From NCBI RefSeq assembly GCF_000686945.1, contig NZ_JMME01000002.1, positions 62,001 through 126,000 of the forward strand: 64,000 nt of DNA, given 5' to 3'. Both the position numbers and the translations under genes were made by a program. Positions 15,563 to 20,049 of the stretch are shown piece by piece (position 1 is the stretch's first letter; each line of letters opens with the position of its first letter). Under the pieces are notes generated by a model. It saw only the letters and a list, made by a program, of their open reading frames with translations. It was not told the origin of the DNA and ran no database searches. This DNA comes from Selenomonas sp. AE3005 (GTDB lineage Bacteria; Bacillota; Negativicutes; Selenomonadales; Selenomonadaceae).

Positions 15563-15576
15563 GTCATATAAAGATA

Positions 15577-15630
15577 ACGCCCCTATATTGTCATGACAAA
15601 CTGACAGTATAGGGGCGTGCATTTTTTTAA
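15577..15630. terminator. Terminator after htpG
   Basis: ACGCCCCTATA pairs with TATAGGGGCGT, with an inner GTCA/TGAC helix, followed by a T-run at about 15622-15628. Confidence 0.85.
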
Positions 15631-15689
15631 CAAAGGCAGGATAACGAAATGAGATGGAGAAATTATATCTGTAATAAGTAGGAGCTTAA

Positions 15690-15821
15690 ATGAGGGAATT
15701 AAAATCTAAAAATTATATTACACTTGTCGATAAGGTTCAAAAGACATATAAAACAAAGAAAACTATTGGTGAAATATCATTGAATGGGTTCGGTAGAAAA
15801 TGTGGTGGCTGTCATAAATAA
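15690..15821 (+). CDS. 43-residue peptide ending in a CGGC motif; possible modified-peptide precursor
   Basis: ATG 15690 follows AGGAG by 5 bases. The product is short and Lys-rich (10 of 43), and it ends G-R-K-C-G-G-C-H-K. It has no signal peptide and no family I recognise. It is the first gene of an AT-rich cluster containing an FtsZ-like protein and a radical SAM enzyme. Small leader-like peptides with a Cys/Gly-rich tail next to a radical SAM enzyme are typical of ribosomally made, modified peptides, so a precursor role is a hypothesis. Equally, it could be a stand-alone small protein or a chance frame. The Shine-Dalgarno and the contrast of a plain N-terminal part with a compact tail are the main support. 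Confidence 0.45.
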   Translation: MRELKSKNYITLVDKVQKTYKTKKTIGEISLNGFGRKCGGCHK

Positions 15822-15998
15822 TATATTATATATGGAATTATATACTAGGAAAAACTGTAGAGGATATTTAATAAGAAATAAGTAAAAGTGATGAGGCTTT
15901 ACAAGCAACATAGCCAAGATGTAAATACAGTGTTTGAAACAGAGTCGATTGAAGTTCATTTTATGAACGGTAAGTATATACTAACGAGGAATAATATT

Positions 15999-17108
15999 AT
16001 GAATCCGTTATCTAGTAAGCCTAAAATAGTGGTATTTGGTTTAGGCCAGCATGGGGTTGATACTATTAACGAACTAGTGGAGAATAATTATGTAGGCTTG
16101 AATTATGTTGTTATTGATTCTAATGGTTGTACGCTAGGAAAATCTAAAGTTTTGGTTCGCATTAGCTTGGAGAATCATTTACCTAAAGGGTTAGGAGTTA
16201 ATACTACTCCTGAAAACTGTCGCAAGGCGGTAAGGGCTGAACAAAAAATAATACAAAAACAGTTGAAAAATGCCGATGCTGCAATCATAATTGCAGGACT
16301 TGGCGGCAATACTGGGGCAGGGATAGCACCGGTACTCTCGTCGCTTTGTATAAATCTGTGCCCAATAACTATATTCGTTGGTGTGCTGCCTTTTGAATCT
16401 GAAGGTATAAAACGTCGTAAAAAAGCTAGCGATAGCCTAAATGAAATAAGAGAATATGCGGATAATATAATAATGTTAAATTCTGATGAAATTTATACGG
16501 ACGTGAATAAAAAGCTACCGACAAAACAAGCTTTTAGCCTAATTGATAAAATTTTATGCAAAACAGTCTGTCATATTTATGAAAAATTAAAAGAAGAATA
16601 TTCCAGGTGTTATCATTTTGAAACAATCACAGGAATACTTCCGCGTGAAGGCTTAATCTCTGTAGATACTGATAACAATAAGGCCGCGTCTGTTTCTATA
16701 AAAGAGAAAGATAGGATAGAGTGTTATTCTGAAGATAGATTCATGTTTGATAAAGCAGGTTTACCTAATTATGGTGAAATTCCTGATATAAACAGTGGCG
16801 GTGTAGATCATGGTATGGATTTTATAGACATACCTAAGTGGATGAAAAAGCCGCTATATCAATCTCTTGAACCTCGGCCTGACGGTAAGGTTATATGTCA
16901 AAAGTTACGTACTATGCGCGTAGAATTAGCCAGAGTAAACAATATACCGTTTCTAAGTGAAGAATGTACTTATGATGGGCCATGTGCAGGGACATGCGAG
17001 AAATGCGAACAAGAATCAGCATACTTACGTGAAAAGTTAAATGAACTCTCTGAGCATGAGCGCATATACCCCCATCATATTATAGGCAAGGTGGATGATG
17101 TTCTATGA
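15999..17108 (+). CDS. Divergent FtsZ/tubulin-like GTPase with a C-terminal four-cysteine domain
   Basis: 369 residues from ATG 15999, chosen for CGAGGA 9 bases upstream; the frame stays open back to 15891 but without a ribosome binding site. The N-terminus has the Rossmann strand IVVFGLGQHGVDTIN. The tubulin signature reads GLGGNTGAGIAPVL, close to the FtsZ G-G-G-T-G-T-G loop. The C-terminal third is not FtsZ-like: it has a helix RTMRVELARVNN, then four cysteines in the pattern C-x5-C-x3-C-x2-C (CTYDGPCAGTCEKC) that could bind zinc or an iron-sulphur cluster. No FtsZ C-terminal tail peptide is seen. It is unlikely to be the division FtsZ. Its stop overlaps the radical SAM start by ATGA, implying coupled expression and a joint function. 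Confidence 0.7.
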   Translation: MNPLSSKPKIVVFGLGQHGVDTINELVENNYVGLNYVVIDSNGCTLGKSKVLVRISLENHLPKGLGVNTTPENCRKAVRAEQKIIQKQLKNADAAIIIAGLGGNTGAGIAPVLSSLCINLCPITIFVGVLPFESEGIKRRKKASDSLNEIREYADNIIMLNSDEIYTDVNKKLPTKQAFSLIDKILCKTVCHIYEKLKEEYSRCYHFETITGILPREGLISVDTDNNKAASVSIKEKDRIECYSEDRFMFDKAGLPNYGEIPDINSGGVDHGMDFIDIPKWMKKPLYQSLEPRPDGKVICQKLRTMRVELARVNNIPFLSEECTYDGPCAGTCEKCEQESAYLREKLNELSEHERIYPHHIIGKVDDVL

Positions 17109-17710
17109 AGGGGGATATAGTAAGATTGCATAGGCATAGAATGGGAATAGATGGCTCGGGCATATCTACTTTAATTTTGTTCTATGGTTGCCCTTTACGC
17201 TGCAAATATTGTGCTAACTGGTACTGCTACCAGGAAAGCACTTACAGAGAATCCTATACGTCTAAAGAACTTGCTGAACTACTTAGTTGCGATGATATTT
17301 ACTTTAAGATGACAGGTGGGGGGATAGTCTTTGGCGGTGGAGAGCCATTACTACAGGCTGAGTTCATTTTTGAAGTATGTCAGATTACCGATTGTCTATG
17401 GAAAAAGCGTGTCGAAACATCATTATATGCAAGTTGGGAGAAGATAGAATTCTTACTAGGTTTTATTGATGAATGGATTATTGATATCAAAGATGTCAAT
17501 CCGTTAATCTATAAGAATTATACGAAAAAAGAAAACGACATTGTTCTTTCAAATTTAAGACGTTTACTTTATTATGTTCCAAGAGATAAGGTTTTGATTC
17601 GAATACCATCAATCTTTGGATATAATACATCTAATGATGTAAAGAAATCGTTACAAACTATCAAAGAAATGGGATATACAAGAATAAATACGTTTGATTA
17701 TATATTATAA
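17105..17710 (+). CDS. Radical SAM protein of the pyruvate formate-lyase activase / NrdG type
   Basis: 201 residues. The cluster-binding motif is C-P-L-R-C-K-Y-C (C-x3-C-x2-C) near residue 29. The segment GGGIVFGGGEP matches the G-G-E-P SAM-binding motif of PflA-like activases. It is shorter than PflA (about 245 residues) and has no extra ferredoxin-type insert. Activases of this class generate a 5'-deoxyadenosyl radical to abstract hydrogen from a protein glycine, or modify peptides. No glycyl radical enzyme is in the window. It overlaps the FtsZ-like gene by 4 bases, so that protein or the CGGC peptide is the likeliest partner or substrate (inference). Confidence 0.85.
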   Translation: MKGDIVRLHRHRMGIDGSGISTLILFYGCPLRCKYCANWYCYQESTYRESYTSKELAELLSCDDIYFKMTGGGIVFGGGEPLLQAEFIFEVCQITDCLWKKRVETSLYASWEKIEFLLGFIDEWIIDIKDVNPLIYKNYTKKENDIVLSNLRRLLYYVPRDKVLIRIPSIFGYNTSNDVKKSLQTIKEMGYTRINTFDYIL

Positions 17711-17728
17711 TGAACGGGAGTGGGAGTT

Positions 17729-17923
17729 ATGTCAATATATTTCACCGAAGAGGAAAGCCAGTTAATAAAAGAAGGAAAGAAATTGTTTCCTGGTGAAGGC
17801 GTTGGTTTTAACTACGATGAGTGGAATAGTGTTATAGAATGGAAAAAATGGCTTATTGATAAAATCACAAAAGAAAAGGAAAGACAATCAAAGGCACAGA
17901 TTTTAAATACCATTGACAAGTGA
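17729..17923 (+). CDS. Small charged hypothetical protein in the FtsZ-like/radical SAM cluster
   Basis: 64 residues from ATG 17729 (GGGAG 6 bases upstream; an in-frame GTG at 17720 is less likely). It is rich in Lys and Glu, with a predicted helix at each end (FTEEESQLIKEGKK and an EWKKWLIDKITKEKER segment). It has no signal peptide or membrane segment, and I recognise no family. It lies 18 bases after the radical SAM gene and shares its AT-rich composition, so it is probably in the same transcript. Confidence 0.55.
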   Translation: MSIYFTEEESQLIKEGKKLFPGEGVGFNYDEWNSVIEWKKWLIDKITKEKERQSKAQILNTIDK

Positions 17924-17969
17924 AAGCACGATTAGGTTTATAATTATAGAATAGTCGAGGCGGGAAGTT

Positions 17970-18704
17970 ATGTTCAATGTAGATTATGATTTTACAATGG
18001 ATTCTCCAGGTTACTGGGATGGCTTTTGGACACGAAACGATGGCCTCGGAGCAGGTGCATGTGACCCTGATGCTTGTAGTCCTACTCTACAAAAATATCA
18101 TCAGCTAATTTGGAGTAAGCCCTTGCCAAACGGAGAATTGTTTGATTTATCTCTTGGGACTAGCGGGACATATTTGAGCTGGCGTAATATGCGTTTTGGT
18201 AGTGACTCTATATTAGCTAGTTTTCGTTACAGAGATAATAGAGATGTGATTGATGCTGTAAAGCATCATATGTCTGATTACAAATCATTCATGGAGAATT
18301 TCTTGCATAAAGCGTATACTATCGGAGGAATGATAATCTTCCCTAAGCATGCTAATAGCATGAATCAACGCAGAGGGACGGACAAGCAAATTCGTGACAG
18401 ATGGGATTTGACACTAGAATGTATCCGAAGATATTACAATGGAGAGCCAAGCCCGTTGTCAGATGTTATGTATGAAGACCGCGACTTTTATGCTTTATTT
18501 AACGATTTTAAGGGATATGTGGATTTCTTCTATCTTCAAGATTGTGTGACCAAAGATTATAAGCAAGTTTATTTTTGGTTGGGGGATGGTACCTTTACCA
18601 CCACTCCGTTACCGCGTACTGTTGATGAATATTTGGGATGGATAGCAGCGGAACTGGATTTCCTTGATAAACGCAACGCCAGAATAAAGGCAGCGCTATC
18701 TTAA
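17970..18704 (+). CDS. DUF6994-like hypothetical protein
   Basis: 244 residues. The start follows GGCGGGAAG by about 6 bases. The N-terminus (FNVDYDF) and the segments CSPTLQKYHQLIWSKPLPNG and RWDLTLECIRRYY fit what I remember as the DUF6994 family, which occurs singly in gut bacteria and has no known function. It has no signal peptide or membrane helix. It may share a transcript with the upstream cluster (46-base gap), but members of this family are found in varied contexts, so linkage to the FtsZ-like/radical SAM genes may be accidental. Confidence 0.6.
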   Translation: MFNVDYDFTMDSPGYWDGFWTRNDGLGAGACDPDACSPTLQKYHQLIWSKPLPNGELFDLSLGTSGTYLSWRNMRFGSDSILASFRYRDNRDVIDAVKHHMSDYKSFMENFLHKAYTIGGMIIFPKHANSMNQRRGTDKQIRDRWDLTLECIRRYYNGEPSPLSDVMYEDRDFYALFNDFKGYVDFFYLQDCVTKDYKQVYFWLGDGTFTTTPLPRTVDEYLGWIAAELDFLDKRNARIKAALS

Positions 18705-18904
18705 AATATGAAAAAAGTATATTCTAACTTTAGGCGTGTAATATATGAGAATGTTTTATTCTGTTTATTATAAAAATGCAATAGTACCATGAAAACTCAT
18801 TTTTAGCTAAGGTTGACATGTCAAACTTAAGTGGTCATGGAGTATAGCTGTGAAGATGGCCTAATCCAATAAGTGTTCTTTGAGCCCATCTTGGATAAAA
18901 TGTT
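18705..18904. other. AT-rich spacer without a gene
   Basis: I see no supported gene. It contains the palindrome TTGACATGTCAA (18813-18824) and a weak AAGATGG/CCATCTT pairing. It forms the 3' edge of the AT-rich island. Confidence 0.5.
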
Positions 18905-18965
18905 AAAGGCAACGGCCGTAGCGCATAAAGAAAGGTTATGTGCTACGGCCGTTGCCTTTATTATT
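18905..18965. terminator. Strong bidirectional terminator
   Basis: An 18-base perfect stem: AAAGGCAACGGCCGTAGC (18905-18922) pairs with 18942-18959, with flanking A and T runs. It separates the DUF6994-like gene from the convergent AI-2E transporter gene. Confidence 0.9.
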
Positions 18966-18996
18966 ATTGTTATTACCCTTGTGTATAACAATTAGT

Positions 18997-20049
18997 TTAT
19001 ATACGTTCTTCTTTTTTGGCCAGCCAGCGTGAGTCTAGTTCCTTTTTCTTGGTCAGTATCCTGTCCTGATAGATATCTTCAATCACCAGTTTGCAGATGA
19101 CGATGAAGGGGACGGCGAGGAACATGCCGGCGGCGTCGAGTAGTTCACCGCCCAGGATAATGCCCAGGATTATCGCGATGGGGTGCAGGTGCAGGGATTT
19201 GCCAATCAGGGTTGGATAGACAAAATTGTGATTTATCTGGGTGAGAATCAGATAAAAGCCTGCTGTCTGCAAGGCCATAAGGGGATTAACCGTGGCGGTC
19301 AGCAGTGTACCGAAAGCCGAGGCTACCGTAGGCCCCAGTACGGGAATAAATTCGCAAATGCCGGATACTACGGCAAACACCGAGGCGTAAGGCAGGTCGC
19401 GTATTGTAAAATACAGAAAGACAACGACTGCGGTGATACAGCATATTACGAGCTGGCTGCAAACGTAAATCCTCAGGGAGCTGAGAATCAAATTGAAAAG
19501 GTTAAGCACCCGGCGGTTATCGCGCTTAGGAAAAAGTCCGGCCAGATAGCGCTTGATTTCTTCGCCATCTTTTAGCAGGTAGAAGGTGACGAAGATGATG
19601 ATAACCAGGTCGATGACTTTGCTGAATAAGGAAATAAGCAAAGTCAGGGAGGATTTCAGCGCTGCCATGCTGGCGGTTTTCATTTCTGCCCAGATGTTGT
19701 CGATTTCTCCCTGCAGGAAGTCAGAATCCTGTAATAACGGGATGTTTTGGATTTGTTCCGTTATTTGGGGGAAGTCTGTGACAAAGCGGCTGAAAGTTGG
19801 GATAAAGCTCTTGGACACGAGGGCCAGGAGCAGGAGCGTCAGGCTGATGAATAACAGTAAAACAAGACCGGCCGCCAAGGCCCGGGGGATTTTGGCGGCG
19901 AGTCTGTCAACCAGGGGGAGCAGGAGCAGCTGGAGGAGCAGGGAGATAAAGATAATAAAAGCCAGCTGCGGCATGGACCAAAAGGTTGACAGCAGGATGG
20001 TAAAGGTCAGGCCAAGAAGAATGGAGGTACGGTATTTTTTTAAAACCAT
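18997..20049 (-). CDS. AI-2E family transporter (UPF0118 membrane protein)
   Basis: 350 residues with the family layout: paired N-terminal helices, a central soluble stretch (about 95-150), then a block of helices containing the conserved PVLGPTVASAFG and GxxLDAAGMFLAVP segments. Family members have been linked to autoinducer-2 export, Na+/H+ exchange and other small-molecule efflux, so the substrate is open. AAGGAG precedes the start. It lies 9 bases downstream of the M48 protease gene and shares its transcript. Confidence 0.9.
   Translation of the reverse strand: MVLKKYRTSILLGLTFTILLSTFWSMPQLAFIIFISLLLQLLLLPLVDRLAAKIPRALAAGLVLLLFISLTLLLLALVSKSFIPTFSRFVTDFPQITEQIQNIPLLQDSDFLQGEIDNIWAEMKTASMAALKSSLTLLISLFSKVIDLVIIIFVTFYLLKDGEEIKRYLAGLFPKRDNRRVLNLFNLILSSLRIYVCSQLVICCITAVVVFLYFTIRDLPYASVFAVVSGICEFIPVLGPTVASAFGTLLTATVNPLMALQTAGFYLILTQINHNFVYPTLIGKSLHLHPIAIILGIILGGELLDAAGMFLAVPFIVICKLVIEDIYQDRILTKKKELDSRWLAKKEERI

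Follow-up and report, generated by a model that had tools for sequence, protein, structure and literature searches.

Radical SAM (rSAM) activases of the PflA type abstract an alpha-hydrogen from a glycine of a partner glycyl radical enzyme, and glycyl radical sites, as in PFL, are cut by oxygen. In leader-guided rSAM maturation of RiPPs, a conserved N-terminal recognition part precedes a variable remainder with a short core motif. To our knowledge, glycyl-radical modification of proteins by means of a portable tag has no described counterpart. As for the tubulin-like GTPases, the C-terminal peptide of FtsZ is a divisome-binding part of the protein. Proteins of this family named FtsZl1 and FtsZl2 have also been described (PMC2875224).

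The window considered here is the whole stretch of 64,000 nucleotides from Selenomonas sp. AE3005 (contig NZ_JMME01000002.1, positions 62,001 to 126,000), in which an AT-rich block between htpG and an AI-2E transporter gene recalls each of these systems (table 1). With a probability of about 0.55, we propose that the block is one case of a modular system, in which a Cys domain docks cargo on a PflA-class rSAM enzyme that acts on a motif glycine.

Table 1. Features of the block between htpG and the AI-2E transporter gene, in window coordinates.
Feature	Position	Strand	Basis
AT-rich insert between htpG and AI-2E transporter gene	15567..19004	.	comparison with G149, GC profile, Cys-domain search of the order
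intrinsic terminator-like stem, 17 pairs, 3' of htpG	15577..15618	+	terminator scan
43-aa ORF, end KCGGCHK, not conserved	15690..15821	+	ORF list, motif score, homologue search
FtsZ-derived GTPase half, disordered linker and C-terminal Cys domain	15999..17108	+	start by inspection; Pfam, model
NYGEIP in the linker, candidate glycine motif	16767..16784	+	motif score, p 0.045, uncorrected
DFIDIPKWMKK, resembling the C-terminal peptide DFIDIPVWMQRK of the genome's own FtsZ	16818..16850	+	sequence comparison
Cys domain (tag) with C-x5-C-x3-C-x2-C and one more conserved Cys ahead of it	16887..17042	+	alignment A7 (29 rows), profile searches
PflA-like rSAM enzyme, 201 aa	17105..17710	+	Pfam, NCBIfam; CX3CX2C at 17189-17212
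charged 67-aa protein (64 aa from internal ATG), no family found	17720..17923	+	Pfam, NCBIfam
DUF6994 protein	17970..18704	+	family match 3e-77; family also 3' of the pair in L023
strong terminator-like stem, closes the block	18909..18955	+	terminator scan

A sequence-only reading had described this block as an AT-rich, terminator-bounded cluster of four closely spaced genes, pairing an FtsZ-like GTPase with a PflA-like rSAM enzyme. The four open reading frames are found where it placed them, the FtsZ-like and rSAM genes overlap by ATGA, the C-x5-C-x3-C-x2-C string is present in the FtsZ-like protein, and the GC content is 0.30-0.41 in windows of the block versus 0.42-0.58 in the flanks shown. 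The charged product of the fourth gene, for which no homologue was found in the other fetched loci, has 67 residues and reaches the 64 given earlier only from an internal ATG. Likewise, the left terminator stands, but none was reported at 17923, and the strong right stem sits beyond a fifth gene (DUF6994), so that the unit is longer than had been stated. In the congener G149 (L183) only 44 bp separate htpG from the AI-2E gene (window position 19005) and, therefore, some 3.4 kb (~15567-19004) are absent there. Two further congeners (L187, L188) carry a different small gene between the same two neighbours, and the site may thus be an insertion hotspot. In the search of the whole order, the window's genome was the only one of its genus to be matched by the Cys-domain profile.

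The small CGGC-tailed peptide that opens the block had been taken as a possible modified substrate. Its good ribosome-binding site, the TIGEIS string and two Cys would suit a RiPP cluster with the 43-aa peptide as precursor, a reading that we nevertheless reject for non-conservation and hold to be highly improbable: 160 other family genomes gave no convincing homologue (three marginal matches, E 0.014, 0.036 and 0.064), no match was found near the other FtsZ-rSAM pairs in the stretches fetched (for L020, whose contig stops within the FtsZ gene, this covers the downstream side only), and TIGEIS scores like shuffles (p 0.46). A conserved small peptide with a Cys/Gly tail was thus not found, and the ORF is probably incidental. 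The suggestion of a defence module found no support either, as PADLOC gave no match for the FtsZ-like, 67-aa and DUF6994 genes; a known anti-phage defence system was rejected on the negative result for the FtsZ-like gene. The rSAM enzyme matches the viperin models of PADLOC weakly (9.5e-7, 26.6 bits). Among the three roles offered earlier (modified peptide, protein modification, defence), protein modification is the one that survives best, and it is the one that our docking proposal develops.

In the ORF list the FtsZ-like frame runs from a GTG at 15888 to 17108; the ATG at 15999, with GAGGA 7 nt upstream, appears the likelier start and would give 369 residues. The family assignment made earlier is borne out by the GTPase domain, which matches Pfam Tubulin (9.7e-24, 85.1 bits, cut-off 33), and Foldseek matches the predicted structure to FtsZ; against the FtsZ model TIGR00065 the protein stays below threshold (145.5 bits, cut-off 295.2). 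The C-terminal FtsZ domain is gone (no Pfam match to FtsZ_C), and the T7 stretch reads CYHFET versus NLDFAD in the genome's own FtsZ, so that, judging from these residues, normal GTP-driven filament turnover is unlikely. Erosion is graded among relatives, L021 keeping FtsZ_C and NVEFSE. The AlphaFold model (mean pLDDT 66.5, alignment of 6 rows) predicts a fair GTPase half (~residues 22-216, numbering from 15963), disorder that begins after helix H7 and extends through the linker, and a helical Cys domain; within the linker, DFIDIPKWMKK resembles the C-terminal end (DFIDIPVWMQRK) of the genome's own FtsZ.

The source genome encodes two further FtsZ proteins (L002 and L003), of which that at L003 955-2112 is a second full-length FtsZ-type protein in addition to the usual FtsZ and lacks the Cys tag. 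An ordinary second ftsZ was rejected as an explanation of the gene in the block, since the genome already has both of these and the Cys-domain profile matches solely at the window place. FtsZl1 and FtsZl2 (PMC2875224) are like the window protein in their GTPase core, T4-like glycine loop and occurrence as an extra copy beside normal FtsZ, whereas the window protein has lost the C-terminal FtsZ domain, has an eroded T7 and has gained a Cys tag; identity with them was rejected, the context being different, and the text of that paper mentions neither 'radical SAM' nor 'Selenomonas'.

The Cys domain spans about 50 residues arranged as helix, Cys loop and helix, and neither Pfam nor NCBIfam yielded a model for it. 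In alignment A7 (29 rows), G35, C37 and C40 are invariant and C27, C33 and T36 nearly so. Profile A5 of the domain matches 5/189 genomes of the window's order and 9/295 Bacteroidales genomes, while the larger profile A7 matches 31/261 genomes of one Bacteroidales family and 1/259 of the window's phylum, namely the window's own. Co-occurrence of the FtsZ-like C-terminal domain with the rSAM enzyme, proposed earlier as a check, was found: profile A8 of the enzyme, whose co-occurrence test is partly circular since it was built from paired loci, recovers the identical nine of 295 Bacteroidales genomes with one rSAM each (E 1e-87 or better; cut at 1e-55) and six of the 189 genomes from the window's order, the Cys domain being present in five of them. 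The sixth, G002, has a broken, shortened rSAM copy with an apparent FtsZ remnant and a transposase-like ORF nearby; its locus (L086 4653-5283), with the FtsZ-like remnant upstream of the shortened gene, looks like a decayed module in a different genus of the family.

Both partners are present in 49 loci, a set that includes near-copies (e.g. L007/L009 and L081/L141). They are same-strand neighbours in 45, within 60 nt in 43 of these, with the client first in 24 and the rSAM gene first in 21; three are natural fusions (L064, L065 and L145) and one locus is divergent (L116). Within the Bacteroidales family, the fetched stretch contains the rSAM gene for 29/31 genomes, whereas G662 and G493 have Cys-domain proteins with no rSAM within the ~47 and ~48 kb fetched. 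Distances between Cys domains correlate with those between their rSAM partners (r 0.77; permutations ≤0.19), also when the window's family is left out (r 0.74; permutations ≤0.23), and the five rSAMs of that family form one supported clade. The FtsZ-Cys protein occurs with the rSAM enzyme in four genomes of the order (window, L020, L021 and L023), so that the coupling noticed in the window recurs, with overlapping reading frames, in every genome found to have such a protein. In a fifth (L022) the Cys domain follows an N-terminus without Pfam match, again with an rSAM gene, and in L005 (Bacteroidales) it adjoins an enzyme of this kind with no FtsZ part attached. Thus, the earlier pairing of GTPase with activase is right as to adjacency, but the constant pair is the Cys domain and this rSAM subfamily, the tubulin part being one cargo among many.

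That the enzyme is PflA-like, as had been claimed, is confirmed by its matches to Pfam Radical_SAM (1.8e-13) and, best among NCBIfam models, to TIGR02494 (glycyl-radical enzyme activating protein; 6.1e-37, 127.5 bits, cut-off 174.35), with 84.7 bits against TIGR02493 (cut-off 231.75); none of the 25 NCBIfam matches listed reaches its cut-off, and the best are glycyl-radical activases. Regular expressions find CX3CX2C in 49/49, a GGE-like string (GGGEP) in 49/49 and DIK/DVK in 48/49 of the rSAMs, features which we take to be activase signatures. The model of the L064 fusion (alignment of 36 rows; pLDDT 92, pTM 0.89) includes the Cys domain in the fold, which among solved structures comes closest to that of PflA bound to its peptide substrate. 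Activation of a classical glycyl radical enzyme was rejected, as the clients scanned came without such a partner: no glycyl radical enzyme model was found among the client proteins scanned, and the pattern RV.G[YFW] in 0/85 client ORFs.

The three fusions, which put the Cys domain in the enzyme, would also be expected if the domain served the rSAM as a separable subunit for an auxiliary cluster, its five Cys possibly holding that cluster, the target being a small molecule or something else and the cargo merely placing the enzyme; the CX5CX3C string resembles part of the SPASM pattern. However, no SPASM or twitch domain was matched by Pfam in the window rSAM, the L064 fusion or the other proteins scanned, a single rSAM serves nine Cys-domain proteins in G189, and the clients have a cargo motif in common, so that we regard this reading as quite doubtful. 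Docking of cargo by the Cys domain is preferred, and the cargo itself then comes into focus.

Pfam recognizes TonB_C, CarbopepD, OmpA, HIRAN, serpin and FtsZ domains in the cargo, to which short lipoprotein-like tails add a further type; among ten short clients scanned, nine were unmatched and one matched weakly. Four of the nine Cys-domain proteins of G189 are tandem clients of more than 1,000 residues. At L051 6354-19500 of this genome, the first of the four tandem tagged ORFs has a CarbopepD match (Pfam) and looks SusC-like by eye, and the last runs off the stretch; in our reading, the 1,100-aa clients are SusC-like beyond their CarbopepD domain. In L119, L122 and L123, four or five tagged clients, all intact, stand in tandem with one rSAM gene at the array end, the one client scanned being of the CarbopepD type. 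Judged by a plain rule on hydropathy and lipobox rather than by a trained predictor, a hydrophobic segment follows the tag in 48/56 N-terminally tagged non-redundant clients, with a lipobox-like end in 30; since the segment comes after the tag, the latter would stay inside and be lost on export.

A plasmid of Segatella copri and viral contigs also carry copies of the module. Near-identical pairs of rSAM and HIRAN client lie on viral contigs at L007 4225-8901 and L009 5666-8745, and the genes 3' of the clients differ (ResIII-type in L007, AAA_21 and RloB in L009), as if this were a variable cargo site. HsdM adjoins L021; at L022 5063-6950 (G117), genes for a weak vWA and a clear Macro domain precede the tagged protein; at L023 5666-8142 (G167), Exo_endo_phos, DUF6994 and ADP-ribosylglycohydrolase genes lie 3' of the FtsZ-rSAM pair, DUF6994 being common to the window. 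ORFs of ~1,150-1,190 aa, with Sel1-like repeats by eye, stand directly upstream of pairs of rSAM and stand-alone Cys protein at L063 5424-8999 and L146 4947-8417.

Common to this varied cargo is a short motif, [LVI]xG[DEM][VI]. From 85 Cys-domain regions, 76 were usable and 63 non-redundant, giving then 55 plus 5. Unsupervised EM on 55 cargo tails, with the signal segment and the TonB domain taken out beforehand, returned [LVI]x[LVI]xG[DEM][VI] at a log-likelihood of 220 vs 118-130 in eight shuffled sets, with unequal restarts (120 for the real and 30 for the shuffled tails). Look-alikes of the motif are native to CarbopepD, OmpA and HIRAN domains; after removal of such carriers by regular expressions, the motif remains in the 40 tails left (185 vs 108-119 in 10 shuffles; 100 and 40 restarts, respectively). 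The strict form [LIVM]xG[DE][IV] is present in 13/19 short tails, vs a mean of 0.51 and a maximum of 6 in 500 shuffles, and is absent from the short clients L063 and L146. Furthermore, a Gly stands beside the FPGG region in 13/22 tagged TonB matches vs 0/17 untagged TonB proteins of client-bearing genomes; these counts were made by eye, with L147 added and two rows of L162 left out for not being TonB frames (12/22 vs 1/19 by the script rule), on rows that are partly dependent (L136 and L139 are near-copies).

What is perhaps most telling is the swap at L064 and L065, where the enzyme itself carries the Cys domain and a separate small protein (71 or 76 aa), encoded by the next gene, contains motif-like repeats (p 0.03 and 0.009). 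This arrangement, read from gene order and motif scores, is our best single argument that the motif carrier would be the substrate and the tag the docking element; in the fusion L145, no motif protein was seen beside the enzyme. The FtsZ clients score weakly, with p 0.045 (uncorrected) for NYGEIP of the window and for L022, and 0.33, 0.66 and 0.99 for L023, L021 and L020, respectively. Such weakness would be natural if the Cys domain itself were the substrate, its G-T-C/Cys loop being modified by the rSAM (thioether, glycyl radical or cluster assembly) and the finished domain regulating the cargo, e.g. as a redox or oxygen sensor. The domain is the sole element common to all clients, and its invariant and nearly invariant Gly, Thr and Cys positions point the same way, but the cargo motif, the Gly of the tagged TonB proteins and the separate motif proteins beside the L064 and L065 fusions would be left unexplained. 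We consider modification of the Cys domain unlikely and return to docking and attack on the cargo glycine.

Built on the Cys domain, its pairing with the rSAM enzyme, the fusions, the motif with its enriched glycine and the PflA-like fold, the mechanism that we favour may be drawn as follows. The ~50-residue domain, fused to cargo, would dock it on the dedicated PflA-class enzyme encoded next door, which would act on the glycine of the cargo motif. Given the activase-like signatures and the motif glycine, this step would most likely be alpha-hydrogen abstraction, by analogy with PflA-type activases, and its outcome could be a stable radical, a cross-link or cleavage. In most Bacteroidales clients, where the tag precedes the signal or lipobox-like segment, it would remain cytoplasmic and be lost on export, much as a leader. 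In the window, the putative cargo is the degenerate FtsZ-derived GTPase, with NYGEIP in its disordered linker as the candidate site. That a modified FtsZ decoy would interfere with division, perhaps as a means of defence, is no more than conjecture, PADLOC being negative for the FtsZ-like gene, although HsdM lies near L021 and genes for ResIII, or for AAA_21 and RloB, come after the viral HIRAN clients. More speculative still in its chemistry, and in our view a long shot, is that a portable folded tag lets one PflA-class enzyme plant a glycyl radical in the linkers of many full-length proteins; because oxygen cuts such sites, the mark would serve as an oxygen-triggered scission or release switch, placed here on an FtsZ decoy that keeps the divisome-binding peptide.

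No published description of the Cys domain/rSAM pair was found in the open-licence literature, including the available parts of PMC8939145, PMC2875224 and PMC10352776, the last of which, on RiPP clusters in Bacteroidales, does not mention 'TonB' in those parts. The same literature gave no papers for FtsZ-like or TonB proteins with rSAM, and, among the papers listed, only off-topic ones, judged by title or listing, for rSAM with HIRAN and for tubulin-like proteins with rSAM in defence. The Cys domain, the rSAM subfamily and the target motif together provide a sequence definition for what seems to be a general way of tagging proteins for radical modification in gut anaerobes; it extends to proteins bearing export signals, to cargo on phages and plasmids and to a GTPase of the tubulin family. 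With clients as short as ~130-145 aa, the system can be tested directly, and structural studies could use the three fusions as single-chain enzymes.

Compared with the PflA, TIGR02493 and TIGR02494 activases, the enzymes of this system are alike in fold (PflA best), in CX3CX2C, GGGEP and DIK, in the single cluster and in the likely glycine target. They differ in that the window-type rSAM has only ~200 residues with a shorter C-terminus and scores under the family cut-offs, and in that its partner is a Cys-domain protein rather than a glycyl radical enzyme. With leader-guided rSAM maturation of RiPPs, the system shares the conserved N-terminal recognition part, the variable rest and the short core motif, as well as an adjacent dedicated rSAM, one enzyme serving several clients; the precursor layout of conserved leader, variable remainder and core motif is indeed recognizable, weakly so for the FtsZ clients. 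Unlike in that pathway, no SPASM was found, the tag is a Cys domain that may be C-terminal or fused to the enzyme, and complete folded proteins (serpin, HIRAN, TonB and FtsZ) are among the cargo. The Cys-tag system may be viewed as a form of leader-guided modification by radical SAM enzymes, and its chemistry might set it apart as a separate class.
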